32,571 nucleotides of DNA from Nitrospinota bacterium (GTDB taxonomy: Bacteria; Nitrospirota; Nitrospiria; Nitrospirales; UBA8639), in the NCBI GenBank assembly GCA_022572725.1, contig JACZVJ010000025.1:1-32571 (forward strand). The letters run 5' to 3'. Under the pieces are notes generated by a model. The model did no database searches and was not told the origin of the DNA. It was given only the letters and a program-made list of their open reading frames with translations. Both the position numbers and the translations under genes were made by a program. Each line of letters begins with the position of its first letter. Position 1 is the stretch's first letter. This document shows positions 1,111 to 27,971 of the stretch, in pieces.

Positions 1111-2070
1111 TTAATATGGTGGCCGGCTGTTGCTGAGGCACAGATCGACCAGGTCGTCCAGACGCGCGGTCCCGGCACACATCACGGTGTCCGCGCCACC
1201 CCAGTAAATCTTTACGCCGCCGTCGTCATCCGCGACCGCACCGCAGGTAAAGACGACGTTGTGGACGTAGCCCGTGATCTCCCAGGGATCCTCTGGGGCC
1301 AGCACCCATTCGTCTGAGACGCCGATAATCTTCGCGGGGTTGGCGAGATCATGCAGCGCCACGCCGAGGCGATAGACCGCCCCGTCCATGGTCTCGAATA
1401 CCCCGTGGTAGATGCTGAGCCAGCCGCGCTCAGTGCGAATCGGGGGCGCACCGGGACCGATCTTCGACTCGTCCCAGTGATAGGGCACCGGTTTCATCAC
1501 CACCTCGGAATCGCCCCAGTGCACCAGGTCCGGCGACCATGACAGCCACACGGACCAGGGGCTGATCTCCGAATGGGGACGGTCCAGGCGGGCGTAACGG
1601 CCATTGAACCGCTCTGGGAAGATGACGATGTTGCGCATGTCCGCCTGCGTGATCAGTGCAACCCGCTCGACGGATCGAAAGTCCCGGGTCCTCGCCAGCC
1701 CGATACGCACACCGTGGCGTGAATAGGCGCTGTAGGTAATCAGGTATTCCCCGTCAATACACGAGACTCTGGGATCCTCTACTCCGAAGGCCTCGTATTC
1801 TGCAAATGCTCCTTCTGTCGACGGAATCATGAATGGTTCCGTTCCGGCCGTGAACTTGAACCCATCTTCACTCTCGGCGATCCCGATGATCGACCGACCA
1901 CTGCGCAGGTGGGATCGAAACAGCATGATGTAGCGCCCGTCGTGCCGTGCGATGCCGGCGTTGTGCACGGTCTCCACCGGATAGGGGATATCGTCCCTGG
2001 TGAGGATCGGGTTGGTCGGGCAGCGTTTGATCACCGGCCGAGTGTTACCAATGTTACGGGGAGCGGCCAT
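1111..2070 (-). CDS. GH130 family glycosidase/phosphorylase (short form)
   Basis: A 319-residue protein with the five-bladed beta-propeller signatures of GH130, whose members phosphorolyse (or in some subfamilies hydrolyse) beta-mannosides. Visible motifs are VEDPR at about residues 97-101 with the family-conserved acidic residue, GAPPIRTERGWLSIYHGV, GYVHNVVFTCGA and YWGGADT near the C-terminus. There is no signal peptide, so it should act in the cytoplasm on an internal or imported oligosaccharide. The start ATG has a strong GGAGG six bases upstream and lies inside the last codons of the GT4-cupin gene (17-base overlap), so the two are translationally coupled. Its length fits the short GH130 phosphorylases. 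The exact donor and acceptor sugars cannot be told from sequence; mannose linked to glucose, mannose or N-acetylglucosamine are all known in the family. Confidence 0.88.
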   Translation of the reverse strand: MAAPRNIGNTRPVIKRCPTNPILTRDDIPYPVETVHNAGIARHDGRYIMLFRSHLRSGRSIIGIAESEDGFKFTAGTEPFMIPSTEGAFAEYEAFGVEDPRVSCIDGEYLITYSAYSRHGVRIGLARTRDFRSVERVALITQADMRNIVIFPERFNGRYARLDRPHSEISPWSVWLSWSPDLVHWGDSEVVMKPVPYHWDESKIGPGAPPIRTERGWLSIYHGVFETMDGAVYRLGVALHDLANPAKIIGVSDEWVLAPEDPWEITGYVHNVVFTCGAVADDDGGVKIYWGGADTVMCAGTARLDDLVDLCLSNSRPPY

Positions 2071-3403
2071 AGTCGTCCTCCAACCGAATAATGTCGTCTT
2101 CTCCGAAATAGTCCCCCATCTGGACTTCTACAAAGACCAGCGGGATGTTGCCAGGGTTCATGATTCTGTGTACCGCACCCTTGGGTATGTCCACGGACTG
2201 CCCCGGCTTGAGCAGGGTCTCCTGTTCCCCGACCGTGACCAGGGCCACGCCGCTGACCACGGTCCAGTGCTCTGCACGGTGCCGGTGCTTCTGGAGACTC
2301 AGCCGCTTGCCCGGCTGGACGATGATCTCTTTGACCTTGTGATCGTCACGTTCGAGGAGGTTTTCGTAATGTCCCCACGGTCGGTGGTTCTCCCGGTCGT
2401 CGAGAATCCTCTGGTAGACGTCCAGGTATCGACGCGCCATGTGCTGGCAGGTGAAGCGTTCCTCCACCTCGTCCCGGCAGGCGCGCCGGTCGAGTGAGTC
2501 AATCCTGCCCACCGCATGAACGGCTGCGTTCACATCTGCCACGATAAATCCCGTGCCGCCGTCGCGAATGAGTTCCGACATTGACCCACGCCCAAATGCG
2601 ATCACCGGCGTGCCACAGGCCATGGACTCGACCACGCTCAGTCCGAAGGGCTCGTCGAAGTGGATCAGGTGCAACAACGCCAGCGCACCGCCCAGAACCT
2701 CTTGTCTTTTTTCCGGCCCGACGGAGCCGATGTATTTCACACCGGATCCATCGATGTGCGGCTCAACGTGTTCCTTGAAGTACACCTCGTCGTGCACGAT
2801 TCCCGCGATCACGAGCGGGATGCCAGTCCTGCGCGCCACCTCAATGGCTTCGTGGACACCCTTGTCGGGGTGGATGCGCCCGAAGAACAACAGGTAGCTT
2901 CCTGCATTTTCCCGATAGGGAAATTGGGCAAGATCGATGCCATGATGGATGGTTGCGATATAACCGAGTTCACGACACTTGTCGGCCTCACTGATAGCCA
3001 CGTAGTATGTCCGCTTGCTGTACTTTTGATAAACTGGCAAAATTGACGACGAAGAGAATCCATGTATGGTCGTGACGATCGGTGTATCGGTAAAACCACT
3101 GTAACTGAGCGGCAAAAAATCGAACTGGTTGTGAATCAGATCGAATTCATCCGCTCGCCTGAATACCTCTGCTATATGCAGGCACTCCCATACCTTTGGA
3201 TTGATCGAGGGGTCTTCTGAGTAGGGTCGTTCGCACACCCAGGCGAGTGTGCCACGGGTGAGGGAATCCCCGGTCGCAAACAGTGTCACATCTACACCCA
3301 TCGCCACCAACTGTTCCGTCAGGAGGCTGACCACGTTTTCCCAAGGCCCATAATGATGCGGTGGTGTACGCCAGGACAGGGGACTTAACATCGCAATCTT
3401 CAT
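2054..3403 (-). CDS. GT4 glycosyltransferase fused to a phosphomannose-isomerase-type cupin
   Basis: A 449-residue two-domain protein. Residues 1 to about 335 are a GT-B fold glycosyltransferase of family 4: an N-terminal KIAMLSP strand, a HHYGP glycine loop, the second-domain strand LLFFGRIHPDKG and the nucleotide-sugar E-x7-E motif EPFGLSVVE at 251-259. Residues 341-449 are a complete cupin of the type found at the C-terminus of bifunctional mannose-1-phosphate guanylyltransferase/mannose-6-phosphate isomerase (AlgA/ManC). It begins RPWGHYENL, carries the metal-binding block Q371-x-H-x-H-R-x-E-H379-W and ends with the GEDDIIRLEDDYGR signature. The guanylyltransferase domain is absent. If the cupin is active, the protein would interconvert fructose-6-phosphate and mannose-6-phosphate and also transfer a sugar; this pairing is inference. 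It is the first gene of a minus-strand pair with the short GH130, read away from the divergent promoter region at 3404-3715. Confidence 0.87.
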   Translation of the reverse strand: MKIAMLSPLSWRTPPHHYGPWENVVSLLTEQLVAMGVDVTLFATGDSLTRGTLAWVCERPYSEDPSINPKVWECLHIAEVFRRADEFDLIHNQFDFLPLSYSGFTDTPIVTTIHGFSSSSILPVYQKYSKRTYYVAISEADKCRELGYIATIHHGIDLAQFPYRENAGSYLLFFGRIHPDKGVHEAIEVARRTGIPLVIAGIVHDEVYFKEHVEPHIDGSGVKYIGSVGPEKRQEVLGGALALLHLIHFDEPFGLSVVESMACGTPVIAFGRGSMSELIRDGGTGFIVADVNAAVHAVGRIDSLDRRACRDEVEERFTCQHMARRYLDVYQRILDDRENHRPWGHYENLLERDDHKVKEIIVQPGKRLSLQKHRHRAEHWTVVSGVALVTVGEQETLLKPGQSVDIPKGAVHRIMNPGNIPLVFVEVQMGDYFGEDDIIRLEDDYGRSP

Positions 3404-3715
3404 GAAGGACCTACCTGCAAGACTCCTATACGCGGTGAGGTGGTGTTGTTAATAATCAGGAACAACTGTCCGACATAGTAACACGATGAGTTGGGCGGCC
3501 GACGGGAGAAGGAAACCCATGCCTGGTATCGGATGGGAACAACCACACGTTCCTGCACTATTGGATTGGCCAGGCATGTCGCCGGTGATGCCGTTGAAGG
3601 CCATCGTGCCTTGCAAAGAAAATGTTCATCGTATCATTAATTCAACTATTATACAGTGCGGATTGCAATGCAAGCTGCATCAGATGGAGAGGCCTCGTTC
3701 CGGGTTGACACAGGG
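3404..3715. promoter_or_regulatory. Divergent intergenic region between the two arms of the glycan module
   Basis: About 310 bases separate the GT4-cupin gene (leftward) from the long GH130 gene (rightward), so promoters for both should lie here. For the rightward gene a TATTAT -10-like hexamer sits at 3647-3652, with only a weak GTTCAT 17 bases upstream. A start near 3659 would leave a leader of about 57 bases, which argues against the GTG at 3656 as the true start codon. The stretch around 3440-3480 is AT-rich. I see no clear operator repeat. Confidence 0.35.
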
Positions 3716-5227
3716 ATGATGGAAACCAAACCTATCCCCCCCACTCTCCTTGCACGGCGCAAGGCGATCGTGATGAATGTGAAGATGGGCCGCGTCATTA
3801 CCCGACCCTATTTGCCTGTCGGTGAAGGACGTATCCGAAACGTCATCAACCGGGTGTTGAACCTGGACGAGGACCAGGCGTGTACGATACTGGAAACCAT
3901 CTTCCATGATTTCTCCCACCGTCACCGGGACTTCAGGGAGACGTTGGAGCGAAATTTCGAAAGAGTGGTCGGCTATATACCGGGTGTCGACAACCTGTCG
4001 AAACAACGGCGGCTTTTGATCGGCGCGTACTTTACCGCGGAATACTCTGTGGAGGCGGCGGCGTTGTTCAATCCCTCCATTGTGCGGTTTCCGAGTCAAG
4101 AAACGGATCCTGAAGGATCCTGCCGTTTCATTATGAGCTTCCGTGCCACCGGTGAAGGGCACATCTCATCCATCGAGTTTCGCAGCGGAATTATCGATAC
4201 GAACAACGATATCTACTTCGATCCCCTGAGCGACTATGTCGAAACTCCCGACATCCATCCCAATCCAAGCTATGACCGGCACCAGTTCCGGCTGAAACTC
4301 CAGGAAATGGGGGCGAGTAACCAGGTGACACAATGGCTCCTCAGCGAACTGTCGGACAAATTCACCTTCCACGACCTCCAGGGAAAGATCGCCGAACTCT
4401 GGAGCATCGACCATTTCACACCACAGGAGAAAGCGGGTGGCATCGAAATGGCGATGTGGCTGGCGCAATCCAATTACCAGATCTTCTTTCGCAAGGAGCA
4501 TCCGGTTTCCGAGCGGGTGATCTTTCCCGTGTCGGAATCCGAGCGCAAGGGAATCGAGGATGCCCGTTTCGTGCGTTTCGTTGATAATGACGGCACCGTG
4601 ACCTACTACGCCACCTATACCGCGTACAACGGAGAGACGATCCTGCCGCACCTCATTGAGACTGGAGACTTCTGCTCATTCAAGGTCACGACACTGAACG
4701 GAACACAGGCGCAGGACAAAGGAATGGCCCTGTTCCCGAGAAAGATCCGGGGACAGTACGCCATGCTGTCGCGCCAGGGTGGAGAGAACAACATGATCAT
4801 GTTCTCGGACAATCTGTACTTCTGGGAGAAGGCCCAAATTTTGCAAGAGCCTACGTTTCCATACGAATTCTTACAAATGGGGAACTGCGGCTCTCCCATC
4901 GAGACGCCTGAGGGTTGGCTGGTTTTGACCCACGGGGTTGGCCCGATGCGGACATACAGCATCGGAATCGAGTTGCTGGACCTGGAAGATCCGACCCGGA
5001 TAATCAGCCGGATCAAAGAGCCGATCCTGGTGCCGAACGAACATGACCGTGAGGGGTACGTCCCTAACGTGGTGTACAGTTGCGGTGCAATAATCTACCA
5101 GGACGAATTGATCATCCCGTACGCCTCGGGCGACCAGCGCTGCGGCATAGCGACTCTGCCGGTACCGCAGGTGATGGCCAGGCTGGCACAGAATTCCACC
5201 GATCCCATCCCGATGACAGCCCCATAG
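3716..5227 (+). CDS. GH130 family protein, long form with helical N-terminal extension
   Basis: A 503-residue protein from the chosen ATG. The C-terminal two-thirds carry GH130 propeller motifs: GIEDARFVRF with the family acidic residue at about 280-283, YATYTAYNG, GSPIETPEGWLVLTHGV, GYVPNVVYSCGAII and IPYASGDQRCGIA. The first roughly 240 residues are a mostly helical extension beginning near KMGRVITRPYLP. That places it in a different GH130 subgroup from the short protein at 1111-2070. The frame extends upstream to a GTG at 3656, but that lies on the probable transcription start, and the conserved sequence begins after the ATG pair at 3716-3721. There is no signal peptide. It is transcribed divergently from the GT4-cupin/GH130 pair and converges with the large GT4 gene, 22 bases away. 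Phosphorylase versus hydrolase cannot be decided from sequence alone. Confidence 0.85.
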   Translation: MMETKPIPPTLLARRKAIVMNVKMGRVITRPYLPVGEGRIRNVINRVLNLDEDQACTILETIFHDFSHRHRDFRETLERNFERVVGYIPGVDNLSKQRRLLIGAYFTAEYSVEAAALFNPSIVRFPSQETDPEGSCRFIMSFRATGEGHISSIEFRSGIIDTNNDIYFDPLSDYVETPDIHPNPSYDRHQFRLKLQEMGASNQVTQWLLSELSDKFTFHDLQGKIAELWSIDHFTPQEKAGGIEMAMWLAQSNYQIFFRKEHPVSERVIFPVSESERKGIEDARFVRFVDNDGTVTYYATYTAYNGETILPHLIETGDFCSFKVTTLNGTQAQDKGMALFPRKIRGQYAMLSRQGGENNMIMFSDNLYFWEKAQILQEPTFPYEFLQMGNCGSPIETPEGWLVLTHGVGPMRTYSIGIELLDLEDPTRIISRIKEPILVPNEHDREGYVPNVVYSCGAIIYQDELIIPYASGDQRCGIATLPVPQVMARLAQNSTDPIPMTAP

Positions 5228-5249
5228 GCAGTTGGGGTCACATCGATTT

Positions 5250-7595
5250 CTACGACGCCTCGCGGGCCTCCAATTGGGTAGGCTCTCCTTCCTGTGTGAC
5301 ACGATCCAAGCCGCGGTGGTTGTAAGCGGTGAGCAGCGCCATGAGCCAGCAAAGAGAGGACTCTGCCCCCTGATTTTCATTCGCGCCATGCGCTTCCAGT
5401 CCATCCCGGCAACCCCCGGTGGAGTGGTCGTAGAGCGGAACCCTCAGGTCGTTCTCCCCTTGGTACCAGTTGAGACACCGGTAAGCCTCAGTGATCCAAT
5501 CCTCGTCCCGCGTGCAGTTGAATGCCTCAATGCAGGCGTCCACCATCGCTGCCGCCTCGATGGGCTGTTGATCGAAACGCGCCTTTTCGCCGTCCCTGGC
5601 AAACCACCCCTGGTTGCCGATAGCGGTGAAATGGCGGCCTATCTCATCGGTCTGAACCTTCTTCAGCCAATCGAGCGCACGCAGACCCATCTCTAGCATT
5701 TCGTGGTCTGGAAGCCATTGCCCGGAAAGCAGCAAAGCCTGTGGCAGCCGGGCGTTGTCGTAGGTCAGGATATCCTCACACCAGGGCCAGTCTTCGGTGG
5801 CGGAATCCCTGAACTGTTCCATGAGCCGGTCGGAGAGTATCTTGCGCATCCTTCTCGCCCGACTGTCCCCACTGTAGCGGCAAAGATACGCATGAATACC
5901 GATGATGGCGAAGGCGATCGCCCGCGGGTGTGTGAAATGTTCGGTGGTCCCCAGCGCACGATGGAACAGGTCTACCGCAAAACCCACCTGTCCCTTATCC
6001 CGATCCAAAGCCACCGCGACGCCCAGCCCCCACACCGCGCGACCGTGGGAATCCTCCGAGCCTGCTTCCTCGAGCCAGCGATGATCAAAGGACATGAAGT
6101 TGCGGAACCGGCCAGTCTGATCATTGAAGGCATGGCCCAGAAAACTCAGGTACACGGTGGCAAGGTCGCTCAGCGAGGAATTCAAAGGTTGGAGGCCCTG
6201 TGCCATGACGGCGACAATCAACGCACGGGCATTGTCGTCCACGCAATAGCCGTGCGTCCGGTCTGGAACCGTGTACTTGGAGTGCTGAAGAATGCCCGTT
6301 CCATCGGTCATCCGGCGCACATGGTCCAGCTTGATCTCTGGTAGCCGTTGCTGGCGTAGTCCGAGGGTCTCCAGTCTCCGTACGGGTACGATCTTCCGCA
6401 ATCGCTGGCGTTTGGCTTCCACGAAGGCCTCGAGATAGCGGCGGCCTACGTTGCTCCAGACCATTCTTCGACCGTAGTCATAGGCTCTCTTCTGTATGGC
6501 GCGGAGCTCGTCGGGATGGTCCAGGAGGTCGATAACCTCCCGTGCGAGGTGAACGTGATCTCGGAACGGAACCAACCTGCCCCGACCGTCGGCGAGCAGC
6601 TCTTGAGCGTGCCAGTAAGGTGTGGAGACCACTGCTTTGCCCATCCCAAACGCATAGGCGAGCGAACCGGATATAATCTGCGCCTCGTTCAGGTACGGGG
6701 TGACATAAATATCTGCAGCCCCAATAAACTCCCGCAGGTCCTCGTCGGCCATGAAACGGTCGTGGAAGACAATGTGGTCCGCGACACCGAGCTTTTTCGC
6801 GCGCAGGTGAAGGCCGATTCGGTAGTCCTCCCCCTGTTCTGCCTTGAGGTGCGGATGGGTGGCGCCTACAACCAAGTAAATGACCTGTGGGTGGGCCTTC
6901 AGAATCTCCGGCAGGGCATCGATCACCGCCTCAATGCCCTTCCCCGGTGAAAGCAGGCCGGATGTCAGGATGACTCTCCTTCCCAATACGCTGAACTTTT
7001 CCTTGTAGGCGTCGGATCCAACGAACGGGACGTCAGGAATGCCATGGTGAATCAGGATAATTTTCTCCTCCGGCACCTTGTAGATCTCGCGTAGGAATTC
7101 GATTGACCGTTCACTCATTACAACCAGCCGGTCGGAGAATTCGGAGAGTTGCATCATGATGTGCCGGTCCTGAAGGGTCGGATCCTTCAGGATCGTGTGC
7201 AAAGTCGTCACGACGGGGATCTTGAGGTCGCGCAACAGCTCGATGATGAAGCTGCCCCGCTGGCCGCCGAATATGCCGTATTCATGCTGGAGACAGATCA
7301 CGTCCACCTGGTTGAGGTTGAGCAGATCAGCCGCCAGGCTATATTCGCTCAGGAGGCTCTGATTGACCTCGAACCGCACCTGAGACGGATAGGGATAGCC
7401 TTCAGGCCGGTCGTTCATCGCGACCACCCAACAAATTTTGTCCGGTGCATTCAGGGCGATGGAGTCAAGAAGATGCGAGGTGAACGTGGCGATGCCACAC
7501 TGCCTGGGGAGGTAGTTGCCGATGAGAACGACGTCCTTAAGTGTCTCCCATTCCGGCGGTGAGTCTGTCGTACTGAGAGATTCCATTGATGCCAT
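5250..7595 (-). CDS. Large GT4 glycosyltransferase with C-terminal alpha/alpha-type domain
   Basis: A 781-residue protein. Residues about 20-395 are a GT-B fold family 4 glycosyltransferase: GNYLPRQCGIATFTSHLL at the N-terminus (the CGIA loop common in this group), LQHEYGIFGG, HHGIPDV, TSGLLSPGKGIEAV and the donor-site region YLNEAQIISGSLAYAFG near 301-317. Residues about 420-770 form a helical domain with HGYCVDDNARALI, W..D.LTYDNARLPQALL and ...QPIEAAAMVDAC. These motifs suggest an alpha/alpha toroid, a fold shared by many glycan-active enzymes, so a second catalytic or glycan-binding role is possible but unproven. No signal peptide or membrane segment is seen, so it is probably cytoplasmic. 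The ATG at 7595 has only a weak ribosome site; a second ATG lies three codons in. The gene converges with the long GH130 and completes the module. Confidence 0.85.
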   Translation of the reverse strand: MASMESLSTTDSPPEWETLKDVVLIGNYLPRQCGIATFTSHLLDSIALNAPDKICWVVAMNDRPEGYPYPSQVRFEVNQSLLSEYSLAADLLNLNQVDVICLQHEYGIFGGQRGSFIIELLRDLKIPVVTTLHTILKDPTLQDRHIMMQLSEFSDRLVVMSERSIEFLREIYKVPEEKIILIHHGIPDVPFVGSDAYKEKFSVLGRRVILTSGLLSPGKGIEAVIDALPEILKAHPQVIYLVVGATHPHLKAEQGEDYRIGLHLRAKKLGVADHIVFHDRFMADEDLREFIGAADIYVTPYLNEAQIISGSLAYAFGMGKAVVSTPYWHAQELLADGRGRLVPFRDHVHLAREVIDLLDHPDELRAIQKRAYDYGRRMVWSNVGRRYLEAFVEAKRQRLRKIVPVRRLETLGLRQQRLPEIKLDHVRRMTDGTGILQHSKYTVPDRTHGYCVDDNARALIVAVMAQGLQPLNSSLSDLATVYLSFLGHAFNDQTGRFRNFMSFDHRWLEEAGSEDSHGRAVWGLGVAVALDRDKGQVGFAVDLFHRALGTTEHFTHPRAIAFAIIGIHAYLCRYSGDSRARRMRKILSDRLMEQFRDSATEDWPWCEDILTYDNARLPQALLLSGQWLPDHEMLEMGLRALDWLKKVQTDEIGRHFTAIGNQGWFARDGEKARFDQQPIEAAAMVDACIEAFNCTRDEDWITEAYRCLNWYQGENDLRVPLYDHSTGGCRDGLEAHGANENQGAESSLCWLMALLTAYNHRGLDRVTQEGEPTQLEAREAS

Positions 7596-7922
7596 TTTTG
7601 ACTGAAAACGTTGTGCAGGTGTGTGAACGATTGGACCTTGATACGCGAGTAGCCGAAGGCCACCGAAACTGTGTACCGTAGGTGGCCCTGGCAGCCTCTA
7701 TTGTACATGATTTCAAGGTGATTGACCTATCCGAGTATCTCATGTGTGCAGGCGGGGCCTGATCAACTTATCGACCGGAAGGCCTTGTGTCCCTGTCAGT
7801 GGCGAATTACGAATTCTCCTGTAAAAACAATCGCTTGAGCAGCATGATTCCCGATGGTAGTGGGTTCTTGCCAGAGAAGACACAAATCTACACACTCATT
7901 TCAATATCCAGACGGAGGCCTA
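7596..7922. other. Intergenic stretch before the toxin-antitoxin remnant
   Basis: I see no gene. It must hold the promoter of the large GT4 gene (leftward), where a TACAAT hexamer on the minus strand near 7704-7709 is a possible -10, and that of the antitoxin gene (rightward). Base composition falls from the GC-rich glycan module to the AT-richer region to the right. The last 12 bases contain the antitoxin ribosome site GGAGG. Confidence 0.4.
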
Positions 7923-8189
7923 ATGAACAACGCCATTCCCCTAAAAGAAGCACGCCAAAAGTTTTCCAGGTTGGTTGACCGGGCAGATCGGCAATCGGAA
8001 AGGTTTGTGGTCACCAAAAATGGGACTCCCAGAGCTGTGCTTATGAGTGCAGAGGAATGTGAAAGTTGGGTAGAAAGCTTGGAATTGATGCCCAACCCCA
8101 AAGCCGTCAAAACTTTGGAGCAAGGATTAAAGGAAGCCAAATCTAGAAAGGTGGCATCATTTAAAGAAGTGTTTGGCGAAGAGCTGTGA
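7923..8189 (+). CDS. Phd/YefM family antitoxin
   Basis: An 88-residue protein. The first 55 residues match the Phd/YefM DNA-binding antitoxin fold: IPLKEARQKFSRLVDRA followed by RFVVTKNGTPRAVLMSAEE, the typical strand-turn-strand of the family. The remaining acidic and lysine-rich tail (ending SFKEVFGEEL) is the part that usually wraps and neutralises the toxin. The ATG at 7923 has GGAGG five bases upstream; a longer frame from 7854 lacks such a site and is not used. Such proteins normally bind their own promoter and repress it together with the toxin. The downstream toxin frame overlaps its stop codon by four bases but is broken by stop codons, so this antitoxin appears to be orphaned. Confidence 0.87.
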   Translation: MNNAIPLKEARQKFSRLVDRADRQSERFVVTKNGTPRAVLMSAEECESWVESLELMPNPKAVKTLEQGLKEAKSRKVASFKEVFGEEL

Positions 8190-8437
8190 GAAAAGTCTGG
8201 CTCACTCCTTTGGCCTAAATAGCCCTCAAGACCTTCGAGCCAAACACCCTCCCGAAAATCAAAGAAGCCCTCCGGCACCTCGCCCAACACCCGCTGGAGG
8301 GAAAACCACCCAAAGGATTTAAAAAAGATACGGTATGGTCTTACCGGGGGTGGCCTTACCGCATTCTCTACCGACTTATAGGGACTGAATGACTCGATGG
8401 CTTAGCGGTCGAACACCGGAAGGATGTGTATCGCTAA
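8186..8437 (+). pseudogene. RelE/ParE-type toxin gene, inactivated by two in-frame stops
   Basis: Starting at the GTG that overlaps the antitoxin stop codon, the frame reads VRKVWLTPLA, stop, IALKTFEPNTLPKIKEALRH, then LAQHPLEGKPPKGFK, VWSYRGWPYRILYRLIGTE, stop, LDGLAVEHRKDVYR, stop. Apart from TAA at 8216-8218 and TGA at 8390-8392 the 84-codon frame is intact. Its content is that of a RelE/ParE mRNA interferase or gyrase inhibitor: a basic helix, a WxYRxxPYRI strand and the C-terminal H-R-x-x-VYR signature. The GTG start, four-base overlap with the antitoxin and family pairing all support a former two-gene toxin-antitoxin operon. Loss is by substitutions, not frameshifts, so decay looks recent. 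A sequencing error would have to hit twice to explain it. Confidence 0.85.
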
Positions 8438-8448
8438 AATGAGGCCCT

Positions 8449-10764
8449 TTACAGGGTGGTGCCGTGCATGCGGGCAAAGAGTTCCCAATCGAAGGGTTTA
8501 GGAGTCAGGGCATGAAGAGGCACAGCCTCAATGTTCCCTGAATCTCGGTAGGCCAACATGCAGCCGATTACCTGTTGAGGCTGCTCAACCAGGCGCTTGA
8601 TGACTTCGTACGCGAGGTGCTGAGCCATAGCCTTGTCCGTTGGGGTTGGAGGGGCCCCCCGTAAGGTATGACCTAGAATCGTGGCTTTTGTGGCCACGGG
8701 AAGTGGATAATGCGCAGTTTTCTTTTGACGATCACACTGCCACTGGACAAGCCTGTTGGCCACATACTGGGTCAGGCCGTGGGTTCCACCTTCCGGGTGG
8801 TGCCGATGAGGAGTCCGCTCTGCCACGATAAAAATATGGCTTTTGTTTGGGACCCCCAAGGTTTGGGTTAAATTCCCAAGGATAAACTCCTCAATATAAC
8901 TATCCGGATCAGGATGTTCGTTGACCAAAAGCCCTTCAGCTCTTGCCTGGTAGGCACAGGTCAGCGCGAGGTGGCCAGATCCCGCGCCCATCACCTCGAC
9001 GAAAAACACGGTTCCCATAGCCGCACTGGTGGCTTTGAGCGACTCGATTGATTGATTGGCTAACGCGACAGCTGAATGGAGTCCGAGCGAAGTGGTGCCA
9101 GCGATGTTGTCATCAATCGTGCCAGGGACTCCCACAACCTGGACACCATACCGTTCATAAATGGCACGAGCACCCCGAAGGCTCCCGTCTCCTCCAAGGA
9201 CCACTAAGGCCCCATCCTCCAGGTAAGGTTTGAGGTGGTGAATCGCCGCTTGTTGGACCTCTTCATCTTTAAAATCTTCGAATCGGCTGCTTCCGATGGG
9301 GCTGCTGGCGTGGTTGCTCATCCCCCGGGAATCGTGCTCGGAAACTGGCTCAATCCAATTATTGGCCAAGCCGAGAAAGCCGTGCTGAACAAAGAACACC
9401 TCGATGCCTAGACGGTTCCCGGTCACACGAAGTTCTTTTAAGGCCGCCCCGGCCCCGGCAAAATCGCCACCGGAGACCAAGGCCACGAGCCTCCGAATTT
9501 GACCAGGTTTAAGGGTCACACGGGCCTGACGATCCTGTTCCACAGTTATCCAGGCATCCCGTACCACCTTTTCCCGCTCTGAAAGCCCGACGGCAGTGGA
9601 GTACCCGGACAACTGCCCATGCTCAAAGGTCAAAAGGACCACGTTATCCTGCCCTTCTTTGTATCCACTGAATTCAGCAAAGGCTTCATGGAAAGGCCGT
9701 GGGTCCAGATAGATGATCAAGGCCCGCAAAGTGGAACTATGGGTGTAGAGACAGAGGACCTTGCCCTGGTGCGCCACACCCAACTGATGAAACCCGTCGA
9801 TGACATTCATATACAGTTCAAAGAAAGAGTGACCACCGGGGTAACTGTAGAGGGGGTGCTGGATGAGTCGCTTGGCGGTGCTGGCCTCCACTCCAAAGGC
9901 CTTGGCAGCTTCCTCGATTTCGGCTGTTTTATCGATCCCCGTGGCCCATCCAAAATCCTGGGATTCCAAAGCACACTCCGCTTCGGGCCGAGTGACCTTG
10001 ACCAACCCTGGAGCAATAGCAGCGATAACCCGTTCAAAGAGTTGTCGAGTATTGGGACTTTTACTGACCAGATGAATGAAGGTTTGCGGGTCAAGGTAAT
10101 TACTTAATTGAAGGTAATCTAACTGATGCTCCACTATCCCTAGCATTCGAGCCAGTCCGGCACCAATCGAATCCGCCTTGGGAAATCCCCGTTCTGGATC
10201 AAGGTAATTCGCGAGCCGGCACCCCACCCGATGCGTCTTGCTTTCCACTCGAGAGATGCCGTGTCGCATGGTGAATAACAGGGTCCGGTTAGCCAAATCA
10301 CGGGGCATGAGCCAAAACCGATCCTCTCCCATGTTGAGGACCGTTCGACTCTCCGTGAGCTGCGGGGTCAGATGTTGGCGGGGCACGATCGCCTCGGGAC
10401 GGCGGCGTGTCGGTTTCCGAATAGCACCAATTGGGGCTCGCAATATCGGAGACAGTTCCCCTCGGGCAAGGAGTTGGTTCCAGGCCGCGAAAAATACCAA
10501 CTCGTCTCCCCCGCAGTCCTCTCTTATAAGAGCGCTGCGGAGACCACGATACGTTTTGGCATCGGGTAGCCCGGCTTGCGCGCGTTGGACAAAAGCCTTG
10601 ATCGCTTCTGTAGCCTGGGGCACTCGACTCGATCGGGTTGGGTCTTTTATGACAGGGGTAGGAACTTCAAACCCATCAACATGCGGTCGTTGGGCAAGGG
10701 CTTCTCCATAGGCCAGAAGGCCCTTCACCGTGACAAAATCAAGCGTTCCCACTTCGGGGCTCAT
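8449..10764 (-). CDS. Histidine phosphatase-phosphofructokinase fusion
   Basis: A 771-residue protein with two recognisable parts. Residues about 160-390 resemble the histidine phosphatase (phosphoglycerate mutase-like) superfamily: LLFTMRHGISRVE with the RHG triad at 167-169, SYPGGHSFFELYMNVI, and LCLYTHSSTLRALI with the second histidine at 342. Residues about 425-771 are a PfkA-type phosphofructokinase: LVSGGDFAGAGAAL at the nucleotide loop, VVLGGDGSLRGA at 522-532, GVPGTIDDNIAGT at 545-557 (cognate of the PKTIDND catalytic motif, with the catalytic aspartate kept) and VEVMGAGSGHLAL (cognate of the EVMGR.aG block). Residues 1-150 have no fold I recognise. The start ATG follows AGGTGAGGA. 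It could phosphorylate fructose-6-phosphate and dephosphorylate a sugar phosphate on one chain, or the phosphatase part may be regulatory. Changes in the first glycine loop leave the phosphoryl donor uncertain. Confidence 0.82.
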   Translation of the reverse strand: MSPEVGTLDFVTVKGLLAYGEALAQRPHVDGFEVPTPVIKDPTRSSRVPQATEAIKAFVQRAQAGLPDAKTYRGLRSALIREDCGGDELVFFAAWNQLLARGELSPILRAPIGAIRKPTRRRPEAIVPRQHLTPQLTESRTVLNMGEDRFWLMPRDLANRTLLFTMRHGISRVESKTHRVGCRLANYLDPERGFPKADSIGAGLARMLGIVEHQLDYLQLSNYLDPQTFIHLVSKSPNTRQLFERVIAAIAPGLVKVTRPEAECALESQDFGWATGIDKTAEIEEAAKAFGVEASTAKRLIQHPLYSYPGGHSFFELYMNVIDGFHQLGVAHQGKVLCLYTHSSTLRALIIYLDPRPFHEAFAEFSGYKEGQDNVVLLTFEHGQLSGYSTAVGLSEREKVVRDAWITVEQDRQARVTLKPGQIRRLVALVSGGDFAGAGAALKELRVTGNRLGIEVFFVQHGFLGLANNWIEPVSEHDSRGMSNHASSPIGSSRFEDFKDEEVQQAAIHHLKPYLEDGALVVLGGDGSLRGARAIYERYGVQVVGVPGTIDDNIAGTTSLGLHSAVALANQSIESLKATSAAMGTVFFVEVMGAGSGHLALTCAYQARAEGLLVNEHPDPDSYIEEFILGNLTQTLGVPNKSHIFIVAERTPHRHHPEGGTHGLTQYVANRLVQWQCDRQKKTAHYPLPVATKATILGHTLRGAPPTPTDKAMAQHLAYEVIKRLVEQPQQVIGCMLAYRDSGNIEAVPLHALTPKPFDWELFARMHGTTL

Positions 10765-13118: not shown

Positions 13119-14519
13119 TCATGGGATATCTCGAATTTGAATCGAATCGACCCGTTGTTGAGCCAAGACGTCTGAGATAATCACGACTTTTTCCCCTGTG
13201 TGGAAATGTTCACGTTGTTTTAAAATCCTAAATGCGGTTTGCAACGTTTTTTCAGGGTCTGAGCTAAAACTGATCCGGAACGGATACACCCCTCGATTGA
13301 GGGTCATGGTCCGACGTGATTGACTCATGTTGGTAAAGGCATAAATGTTCGTGGAAAAAGGACGACAATTTGAGACAAAATCGGCCATGATGCCTCTTCT
13401 GGTAATCACCACAATCCCTTTGGCTTGTAACCCTTCTGCGAGCTTGACCGCAGCGACCGCCAATTGCTGTTTATCTGCGGTAATGTGTAGGTGTTTCGCA
13501 AATTGCAAGCCTGGAATCTCTTCGGTTTTGGTCGCAATTTTGCGCAGATGCTCAATACATTTAAGCGGATATTTACCCATGGCTGTTTCTCCGGATAACA
13601 TCACCGCATCGACTTCTTCATAGATCGCATTGGCCACGTCCGTCACCTCGGCACGTGTGGGAATGGGATGATGAATCATGGATTCCAGCAGGTGGGTCGC
13701 GACAATCACGCGTTTTCCATATTGCGCGCACAGCCGTACAATTTTGCGCTGCACATTCGGCAACTCTTCCAGGTTGATTTCCACACCCAAATCTCCCCGA
13801 GCCACCATAATGCCATCCGATTCCTGAATAATATCTTCCAGATTTTGAACCCCTTCCTGATTTTCAATTTTCGCAATGATTTTAATTCTCCCGGCTTTGC
13901 TGCCCATGAGGTGTTTTAATTGCCGAATATCCTCTGCCTCACGAACAAAAGAAAGGGCAATAAAGTCCACATCTTGAGATAAGCCAAACACGATATCTTT
14001 TTCATCCTTTTGAGTAATAGCGGGTAGGTTGACATGAATCCCTGGTAAATTGACATGGCGTTTACTTTTCAAGACGCCCCCATCCAGGACGCGGCATTGC
14101 ATGAGTCGATCTTCTTTTTCCAGGACTTCAAGGTTGATCAACCCATTATCCACGGTAATCTTATCTCCCACATTGACTGTCTGGATTAAATCGGCATAGT
14201 CGATGTGAATAGAACTTTCTTCCACATCCACTGGCCCTCGCGCTGTGATGGAAATGATCGTGCCTTGCTTTAAATCTAAATCGGTAGACAAGTCCCCTGT
14301 CCGGATTTCAGGGCCTTGCGTGTCCAAGAGAACAGGAATAGGAAATTCGACTTTTTTATTCAGCGTCTTGATGTGTTTGATCACTTTGGCGTGAGATTCG
14401 TGGTCTCCATGGGACATGTTCAAACGCACAATGTTCATGCCGGTGTCATACATTTTTCGCAACATCTCGTAGGATTCCGTAGCCGGTCCGATCGTACAGA
14501 TGATTCTTGTCTTTTGCAT
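13119..14519 (-). CDS. pyk: Pyruvate kinase
   Basis: A 466-residue protein, the usual length of bacterial pyruvate kinase. It converts phosphoenolpyruvate and ADP to pyruvate and ATP, the last step of glycolysis. Diagnostic motifs are KTRIICTIGPAT at the N-terminus, NMSHG, LLDTQGPEIRTG, the active-site block IAKIENQEGVQNLEDI with MVARGDLGVE, and DAVMLSGETAMGKYP. The C-terminal domain has the GIVVITRRG strand typical of the regulatory domain. I chose the ATG at 14519 behind AGGGACGG; the frame extends 20 codons upstream without conservation. The gene stands alone and is AT-richer than the glycan module. Two direct repeats lie on either side of it, so it may sit in a mobile or recombination-prone segment, though the gene itself looks intact. 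Confidence 0.97.
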   Translation of the reverse strand: MQKTRIICTIGPATESYEMLRKMYDTGMNIVRLNMSHGDHESHAKVIKHIKTLNKKVEFPIPVLLDTQGPEIRTGDLSTDLDLKQGTIISITARGPVDVEESSIHIDYADLIQTVNVGDKITVDNGLINLEVLEKEDRLMQCRVLDGGVLKSKRHVNLPGIHVNLPAITQKDEKDIVFGLSQDVDFIALSFVREAEDIRQLKHLMGSKAGRIKIIAKIENQEGVQNLEDIIQESDGIMVARGDLGVEINLEELPNVQRKIVRLCAQYGKRVIVATHLLESMIHHPIPTRAEVTDVANAIYEEVDAVMLSGETAMGKYPLKCIEHLRKIATKTEEIPGLQFAKHLHITADKQQLAVAAVKLAEGLQAKGIVVITRRGIMADFVSNCRPFSTNIYAFTNMSQSRRTMTLNRGVYPFRISFSSDPEKTLQTAFRILKQREHFHTGEKVVIISDVLAQQRVDSIQIRDIP

Positions 14520-14783
14520 AAGGCCGTCCCTGGAATGTGAATGATCCTCAATTGTGCAATAACTCATCAGATTCAGCAATGCGGGCGGTATGAGTGGCCC
14601 GTTTGACCAGAACGTGTCACAGACCTTTCAGGAGCCAAGCCGGTGGTTTCGATTGCCAGGGGAACAGGAACTTGCGGTGGCCCAGGTCAACCTTTGGCGG
14701 GCGGCAAACCAACGCCCTGACCCAACAGGAGACCGACGTCCTAACCAAGGAGGAAAAGGGGGCATTCTGGTTTTTTGAGGGGT

Positions 14784-26380: not shown

Positions 26381-27526
26381 CTAACAACTCCGTTCCACCG
26401 CACGGACGAAATTCTGACAGGTTTCGACCACCTTGTTGGGATGTTGAAGTAAGGTTCCTCCCACAACCACCATGACCTCCATACCGAACAATTCCAATAT
26501 TTCAGGAATTCTCTCCAAACCCAAATGTCCCCCAACGGCCGGCAATATCGCCTTCATATGCCTCAGTGGTTTACCGGTTTCCCCAGCGATCTGAGCACAC
26601 TGGTCTCGTGAAATCGAAAAGTCTCTTCCAAAGACAGGGAACAGGCTCGCATCGACACCAAATAGCCTGGGGATTTGGCCGAACAGCACTGACGGGGCAA
26701 TCCCGGTATCGTCATGAACAATCAGACTGCCAAGCCCGCCTGGATGGCCGAGAATCGGCAAAGCCAGGTCTTTATGAACAGCCAAGCACCGAATGACATC
26801 AAAACCCGTCATGCCCGGACAGATCAATAACCCACCGGCACCAGCTTCTCCAGCAAACAGAGCCCGGGGCAGAATCTGGTCGAATGGCCCAGTGACGTTC
26901 GGCAGATACAGAGCATTCCGCCCGGTCTGTTGATTGGCTTTCTCCACAGCCTCCGCACAGCGTCGGACACGTTCTTCAAAAGGACAAAAGGCCTGGTTGG
27001 CTAGTCCTTGATCGTCCTTGATGATATCCAGGCCTCCGAGGGCGTAGGAATAGGCCAACTTCGCCAGATCCGTGACACACAGGCCGACCGGCTTTAAAAC
27101 GCCGCAGAGCAACGGTCGTTGAGGTTGCCCTACCTTTTCCCGAAGGCCAGCCCGACCAAAGCGAGGACCGTTCATTCCGTCTATGAGCGACTTGGAGAGC
27201 TCAATGGATGAAACCCGAATTCCTGGTTTCAAGCTCAACATACCAAAGACGATTTGGAGCAGGTGAGGCAACTCACTTCCCGTCACCTCAACAGCGAAAC
27301 TGACAACGGCCTCATAGACATCAAGCGCGACTGGCCGAAAGCCCTCTAAGCGCCCGAGGATGTGGTTTCGTATCTCCTCGTTCGGGACAAGTTCGGCCGA
27401 CATCTCAACCGTTTGGTCAAGACAAATGGCTTCAGCCTTTCTCCGCGCATCACCTTCGGCACCCTTCACGTGGTAGTGGACAGCAAACCGTTCTCCAGAA
27501 AGACCGAGGGAGGAGGAAGGAGTCAT
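26381..27526 (-). CDS. RuBisCO-like protein (form IV)
   Basis: A protein of about 381 residues with the RuBisCO large-subunit fold. Numbered from a TTG codon 7 triplets upstream, conserved landmarks are GVLKPVGL (Lys152 equals RuBisCO K175), GGLDIIKDDQGLANQ (Lys177 equals the carbamylated K201, Asp179 equals D203), LPAVGGHLGLERIPEILELF and GGTLLQHP. Two residues needed for CO2 fixation are changed: the K177 position is Val154 and the E204 position is Gln180, and the loop-6 GKLEG lysine segment is absent. It is therefore a form IV RuBisCO-like protein and probably an enolase or isomerase in sulfur or sugar metabolism; the subgroup needs a tree. ATG 27526 is preferred. No methionine-salvage genes are nearby, so no pathway is assigned. 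Confidence 0.9.
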   Translation of the reverse strand: MTPSSSLGLSGERFAVHYHVKGAEGDARRKAEAICLDQTVEMSAELVPNEEIRNHILGRLEGFRPVALDVYEAVVSFAVEVTGSELPHLLQIVFGMLSLKPGIRVSSIELSKSLIDGMNGPRFGRAGLREKVGQPQRPLLCGVLKPVGLCVTDLAKLAYSYALGGLDIIKDDQGLANQAFCPFEERVRRCAEAVEKANQQTGRNALYLPNVTGPFDQILPRALFAGEAGAGGLLICPGMTGFDVIRCLAVHKDLALPILGHPGGLGSLIVHDDTGIAPSVLFGQIPRLFGVDASLFPVFGRDFSISRDQCAQIAGETGKPLRHMKAILPAVGGHLGLERIPEILELFGMEVMVVVGGTLLQHPNKVVETCQNFVRAVERSC

Positions 27527-27971
27527 CGGATTCGACCAAGGGCCCAACTGGTGGAAGGATCGGACCCTGAGTTTGGAGAAAACCGGTTACGAATATCGAT
27601 CAACTGAGACAAATGAACCCAAATGGGAAAAGCCTGAACTTTCCTGGAAGTTTTCTCGTCGTCATGCCGATAAGGACAAAGTGAGGCATTGAGAACCAAC
27701 TGGCTGAGGAAGCAGGGATCTAAGGGGATGCTGTCAAGGCTAGTTTGGCTGGACACGAAACCCTAGGTCAAACCTTCCCCTCTTAGGCTCCTTTTGAGGG
27801 ACACCCCTTGATTCTTTCCGTTGGGATCCTCAGCAAAGCCGTACTAGGTAGAGAATTTAAAAACCCCTAGGCATCCAAGAATCAACGGAACGTAACTATC
27901 CAACGGGGCCTCTTCCGGAGGCACCCCCGAGTAGATACCAGCCCAAACACTGCTCATGGAAGGATACGACC
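27527..27971. other. Intergenic region without a visible gene
   Basis: 445 bases between the RuBisCO-like gene (leftward) and a small exported protein gene (rightward). I see no supported gene or clear terminator. A GATGCTGTCAAGGCTAG word near 27728-27744 faintly recalls the MITE end at 20967 but lacks the partner end. The promoter of the RuBisCO-like gene should lie in its left part. Confidence 0.45.

Follow-up and report, generated by a model that had tools for sequence, protein, structure and literature searches.

The locus examined here lies on the minus strand of a stretch of 32,571 nucleotides (the window) from the class Nitrospiria. It raises the question of what a single polypeptide does that joins a histidine-phosphatase (HP) fold to a phosphofructokinase (PFK) of the PfkA type, and whether, as a preliminary description of the DNA had suggested, it might switch between glycolysis and gluconeogenesis. 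The Nitrospiria are a class of nitrifying and related bacteria which includes the Nitrospira nitrifiers. Nitrospira and its relatives are major nitrifiers, and their division of carbon between gluconeogenesis and glycolysis has been inferred from annotation. In some genomes, its own among them, no phosphofructokinase candidate other than the fusion was found, and the F6P-contacting residues and regulatory site of the fusion depart from classical PfkA. Whether it produces FBP and what role the HP half plays bear on whether these organisms have a working phosphofructokinase step, and the fusion would show a new way of building PFK regulation.

The presence of the HP fold and the PfkA-type PFK on one chain is confirmed. 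The ATG start codon is preceded at a short distance by the Shine-Dalgarno-like sequence AGGTGAGG, and full-length homologues with 61-76% identity end to end, found in dozens of independent genomes, rule out both an assembly artefact and a chance adjacency of the two halves. Averaged over pairs of members, identity amounts to 76% in the PFK half and 69% in the HP half, to 50% in residues 1-120 and to 80% in residues 121-158. The helices at the N-terminus are followed by a strongly conserved RRPxxIVPR motif and then a beta hairpin; no family match was obtained for residues 1-158, and the helices gave no strong match in the PDB. A short open reading frame (ca. 100 amino acids, 42%) resembling the N-terminal helical region alone is found elsewhere (G004:C37:162173-162448), and in another genome (G023:C44:4131-4361) an additional piece of the C-terminus (69% to residues 695-771) lies 4.6 kb from the fusion. 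These partial copies suggest that the N-terminal helical region can stand apart or persist as a remnant.

Table 1. Features of the fusion gene and its product, and the nearby pyruvate kinase gene (positions in the window, residues of the fusion protein)
Feature	Residues	Positions	Strand	Remarks
Fusion gene	771 aa	8449-10764	(-)	ATG start, stop included; ORF and full-length homologues
N-terminal region	1-158	10291-10764	(-)	AF2 secondary structure: five helices (ca. 12-110)
HP fold, branch 1	159-392	9589-10290	(-)	Pfam, Foldseek, hhalign
RHG (R167-H168-G169)	167-169	10258-10266	(-)	R and nucleophile His invariant
N238-T239-R240	238-240	10045-10053	(-)	Where the second catalytic Arg is canonically found; Asn at 238 without exception, Arg at 240 in 16/31
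S268	268	9961-9963	(-)	Aligned with the acid/base Glu that is canonical in branch 1; 30/31 Ser, 1/31 Pro
H342	342	9739-9741	(-)	Second HP histidine, within invariant HSSTxRA
Linker helix	393-421	9502-9588	(-)	AF2
PfkA-type PFK domain	422-771	8452-9501	(-)	PF00365, Foldseek
GGDG	524-527	9184-9195	(-)	With G531: E. coli D103, G104, G108 kept; ATP-type signature
T-I-D-D-N	549-553	9106-9120	(-)	Retains catalytic base D551 (E. coli D127); Asn instead of D129 throughout
T585	585	9010-9012	(-)	Corresponds to R162, which binds the F6P phosphate; always Ser or Thr
M592-G593-A594	592-594	8983-8991	(-)	Canonical MGR; always Ala instead of R171
K693	693	8686-8688	(-)	Corresponds to R243; always Lys
Pyruvate kinase gene		13119-14579	(-)	TIGR01064, E=4e-156; 2.4 kb from fusion, same strand

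The N-terminal half contains an HP fold of branch 1, with RH near the N-terminus of the domain and a late second histidine. In the window protein alone Pfam PF00300 (His_Phos_1) stays below threshold (E=0.0067), and His_Phos_1 was matched in 31 of 31 homologues (best 7.5e-8). Alignment of the HP half by hhalign gave a probability of 92% (E=6e-7) against 29 ordinary HP proteins of relatives and a low probability against a single HP sequence. The PDB top matches of the AF2 model of residues 1-421 (pLDDT 84.9, pTM 0.86) were HP-fold enzymes only, namely TIGAR, PGM, PhoE, PFKFB3 and Rv3214, with TM-scores of 0.75 for PhoE (by target length) and 0.72 for Rv3214. A false hit is thereby ruled out by profile, profile-profile and fold comparison, and the RHG phosphatase-like domain proposed in the preliminary description is a phosphatase fold by its modelled structure.

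Conservation and loss of catalytic residues are both evident in this domain. The invariance of R167, H168, H342, R347 and N374 indicates that the pocket is under selection, and it probably binds phosphate, but the normal catalytic set is missing. The canonical second Arg of the two-Arg/two-His core, present in 29/29 ordinary HPs of relatives, falls on invariant N238 in an ungapped alignment and on variable R240 with a one-residue gap, the placement chosen by hhalign. Since the former is never Arg and the latter is Arg in only about half of the members, the second catalytic Arg is unconserved under either alignment. The usual branch 1 Glu, found in 22 of the 29 ordinary HPs, corresponds to S268 in the hhalign runs against both the single HP and the 29 HPs; the adjacent E267, which is Glu in 28 of 31 members, could in principle act as a stand-in. 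The conservation of the HP half across the class speaks against simple decay, and as a phosphatase this half is most likely weakly active or inactive, judging from its residues. Thus, the RHG motif and second histidine noted earlier are indeed retained, whereas the idea of a normal phosphatase is not supported.

These residues weigh on the proposal of a bifunctional enzyme resembling PFKFB, in which the product of the PfkA half, a sugar bisphosphate, would be hydrolysed by the HP half, so that one chain could toggle between glycolysis and gluconeogenesis. Such an enzyme would be in keeping with the secure HP fold and with the RHG motif and second His that no member lacks, as well as with the presence of TIGAR, PFKFB3 and Rv3214 among the top fold matches and of PFKFB2 as the best, albeit weak, match of the HP-half profile to PDB sequences (E=0.44). 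The HP-superfamily enzyme Rv3214/GpmB of M. tuberculosis reportedly has FBPase activity as well. However, bisphosphatases are not favoured over mutases in the fold matches, the second Arg and the usual Glu are not conserved, and a class I FBPase is encoded by a separate gene in the own genome and in 8/8 relatives tested. The latter rules out the HP half as sole FBPase and leaves the need for a gluconeogenic switch unsupported. A PFKFB-like switch is unlikely, and less likely than a regulated ATP-dependent PFK.

The kinase half is a member of the PfkA family by profile and by fold. Pfam PF00365 covers residues 427-723 (E=1.7e-55, 188.8 bits against a curated cut-off of 30.9), and the full-length AF2 model resembles bacterial PFKs (TM-scores of 0.83-0.86); the NCBIfam equivalog for ATP-PFK gives 176 bits against a cut-off of 371. 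As the preliminary description stated, this kinase fold is different from that of PFKFB. Its suggestion of a convergent design can apply to the kinase side only, because the HP half belongs to the same superfamily as the FBPase-2 half. Residue numbers of the kinase half given below are those of E. coli PfkA, with the sequence agreeing with 1PFK. Residues G11, R72, D103, G104, G108, G124, D127, M169, E222, H249 and R252 are kept in every fusion member, and the catalytic Asp (D127) and the ATP-type GGDG are invariant in 31-33 members; the GGDG and TIDD (residues 549-552 of the fusion) motifs recognized earlier are thus preserved. The ATP-type signature consists of G104 and G108 (PMC12203962, PMC11609450), and ADP-type PFK-A carries Ile at position 108 (PMC11609450). 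The ADP type is ruled out by G108, and a PPi-dependent PFK by G104 and G124, which are Asp and Lys in the PPi type, as in the paralogues of ca. 430 amino acids.

The sugar site is less canonical. The F6P site is highly conserved throughout PFK-A (PMC11609450), but the conserved F6P-binding set is incomplete in the fusion, with R162 and R243 changed throughout and M169, E222, H249 and R252 kept. The R171A and D129N replacements occur in 0/18 other Nitrospiria PFKs examined, one of which has His at position 171, and also not in E. coli PfkA. The sugar site is thus altered, and since the kinase half is unlike all other PFKs examined at positions contacting F6P and phosphate, F6P is a likely but not a secure substrate. 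It is conceivable, though unlikely, that F6P has given way to another substrate of the kinase, a different sugar or sugar phosphate such as sedoheptulose 7-phosphate or a larger phosphosugar, and that this compound is also the one on which the HP half acts or which it senses. The change of R162, R243 and R171, in the 6-phosphate/1-phosphate region, in 31/31 members would agree with this, as would the very long stem branch of the fusion clade (5.4 changes per column) and the short PfkA, ADP-type or PPi-type PFKs found alongside the fusion in many genomes. On the other hand, H249, R252 and the Lys at 243 may suffice to bind a 6-phosphate, and the pyruvate kinase linkage and the fusion-only genomes described below fit a glycolytic role.

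The PfkA effector-site residues R21, R25, R54, R154, K211 and K213 are replaced in the fusion. The ADP/PEP effector site is lost, so the kinase half should lack the classical R/T switch. The fixed active-site changes in both halves might even indicate that neither half is a normal enzyme, and that two former active sites serve as a metabolite sensor or regulator, comparable to the C-terminal half of eukaryotic PFK-1. In human liver PFK the regulatory C-terminal half likewise has D129N and a small residue at 171, and within the PDB it yields the highest-scoring single stretch to the fusion PFK domain. Such a double sensor is nevertheless very unlikely: the fusion strictly retains D127, for which the human regulatory half has Ser, together with nearly all residues of the nucleotide site, and several genomes have no other PFK.

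A phylum survey, as the preliminary description had proposed for this fusion, found it only in the class Nitrospiria. The full-length fusion occurs in at least 73 of the 296 Nitrospirota genomes sampled and a split or partial form in two more; all 75 belong to the window's own GTDB class, and among the 296 genomes those outside the class gave matches through the PFK half only. A profile of the N-terminal 421 residues matched 41 of 198 phylum genomes, all within the class and always in fused form, with no weaker tail up to E=0.01; no stand-alone relative of the HP half was found in these 198 genomes or in plasmids. An exact-peptide scan of 84,980 species, which distant relatives in other phyla could escape, returned only records titled Nitrospirota/Nitrospirae, Nitrospirales, Nitrospiraceae, Nitrospira or Candidatus Manganitrophus, titles from which the class of the fusion-bearing genomes is taken to be Nitrospiria. 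In the PFK tree all fusion domains group together as a single clade on a very long stem, and the branching inside it is broadly in line with the host families. This indicates that the gene is old and has been passed on vertically within the Nitrospiria.

In its own genome (98.96% complete, 221 contigs) no other PF00365 protein was found. Counting this one, 15 genomes with a completeness of 95% or more have the fusion as their sole PF00365 protein, the single-contig genomes G142 and G215 among them. Most Nitrospirales genomes with the fusion also encode a PPi-type PFK (ca. 430 amino acids; GGDD, K124), and some genomes have the PPi type alone. In deeper Nitrospiria families the fusion is accompanied by a short PfkA or an ADP-type PFK-A. 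The short PfkA proteins of these families (L121, L123, L124, L127, L129) carry Asn or Thr for D103 (GGNG) and Ser for G124, which is unusual for an otherwise canonical PfkA, and the PFKs L126, L128 and L130 (Nitrospiria families f7 and f10) combine the ADP-type PFK-A signature (G104, Ile108) with K124. PF00365 is absent in 12 genomes of genus g3 of the window's family, so that a whole genus near that of the window seems to be without a PfkA-type PFK.

A pyruvate kinase gene is present near the fusion in 17 of 28 fusion-bearing loci, mostly immediately adjacent and divergent. This linkage spans two families, between which the remaining neighbours differ; in the deeper families the neighbours of the fusion gave no consistent functional hint. 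Elsewhere in the window, positions 7854-8440 (+) hold a Phd/YefM antitoxin gene (7854-8189) and then a RelE/ParE-type toxin-like frame, which is broken by a stop at ca. 8390 that leaves the typical HRKDVYR end out of reach. A cluster at 1111-7595 encodes two GH130 phosphorylase-type proteins (1111-2070 and 3656-5227) and two GT4 glycosyltransferases, one (2054-3403) with a mannose-6-phosphate isomerase C-terminal domain and one (5250-7595) with a long C-terminal extension without Pfam match. Positions 26381-27547 (-) encode a RuBisCO large-chain family protein (PF00016, E=9e-27, ORF of 388 amino acids), possibly a RuBisCO-like protein or a divergent form.

The reading we prefer, with a probability of roughly 0.45, is that the fusion is a divergent ATP-dependent phosphofructokinase of the PfkA fold, specific to the Nitrospiria and controlled by a phosphometabolite-sensing HP-fold domain. 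The kinase would act on fructose 6-phosphate. Having lost the usual ADP/PEP effector site, it would probably have passed control to the fused N-terminal half. The HP fold, which retains the phosphate-binding R-H...H core without the full catalytic set, would most likely bind a phosphorylated metabolite and modulate the kinase through allosteric coupling, with little or no phosphatase turnover. This reading is favoured by the retention of the catalytic and ATP-type residues in every member, by the lack of a second PF00365 protein in the own genome and in 14 others that are at least 95% complete, and by the vicinity of pyruvate kinase, the other irreversible glycolytic gene, where other neighbours vary. 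Three of the four PfkB-family proteins of the own genome look otherwise assigned, resembling ribokinase, an RfaE-domain kinase and HMP-P kinase, and the fourth is unassigned. Further support comes from the replaced effector-site residues, from an HP pocket that is under selection yet has no conserved second Arg and a Ser for the usual Glu, from the constant company of a PFK half wherever an HP half of this kind was met in the 198 phylum genomes, and from the single fusion clade that broadly follows the host families.

Against this regulated kinase stand the changes of R162, R171, R243 and D129, with which F6P might bind or turn over poorly, or another substrate be used. Since a PPi-type PFK occurs beside the fusion or alone, the glycolytic role does not fall to the fusion in every genome, and the pTM of 0.56 of the full-length AF2 model is too low to fix the mutual arrangement of the domains. 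Taken together, the fusion is probably a self-regulated, unusual version of a key glycolysis enzyme in the Nitrospiria. A wider formulation, tentative and somewhat unlikely, is that of a Nitrospiria-made single-chain device for control of the PFK step, in which an HP-fold domain either degrades the product of the PfkA-fold kinase or senses a bisphosphate signal, as an independent counterpart of PFKFB and of the allostery of eukaryotic PFK-1.

An earlier description of an HP-PFK fusion was not found in the CC-licensed full texts searched; the passages on fusions in a 2025 review of the PFK superfamily do not mention an HP fusion, and phosphofructokinase is not mentioned in the Nitrospira metabolism papers checked. 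Among known proteins, E. coli PFK-1 (PF00365) shares with the fusion the fold, the GGDG/ATP-type donor residues, D127, R72, E222, H249 and R252. The fusion is 29% identical to it, differs by R162S/T, R171A, R243K and D129N, lacks the effector-site arginines and carries a 421-residue HP-fold N-terminal extension. The branch-1 HPs PhoE, GpmA/PGM, TIGAR and Rv3214/GpmB have the fold, RHG with the nucleophile His, the second His and PGGxS in common with the fusion, whose HP half differs in having no conserved second Arg, Ser instead of Glu and longer insertions, and in never being free-standing.

PFKFB likewise combines a phosphofructokinase-like domain and an HP fold on one chain, and the HP halves belong to one superfamily. 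Its kinase is a P-loop (adenylate-kinase-like) PFK-2, whereas that of the fusion has the PfkA fold; moreover, in the bacterial fusion the order is reversed with the HP fold first, the HP catalytic set is incomplete and a separate FBPase is present. The fusion is not a member of the PFKFB family, from which its kinase fold, its order of domains and its incomplete set of HP catalytic residues exclude it, and the comparison is apt as a functional analogy. Yeast and animal PFK-1 similarly provide a PfkA core with extra parts, in eukaryotes a tandem half, and yeast PFK-1 is described in passages of a recent paper as having a glyoxalase-like N-terminal domain (PMC12203962). Unlike these enzymes, the Nitrospiria fusion adds an HP fold and a helical region, acquired independently.
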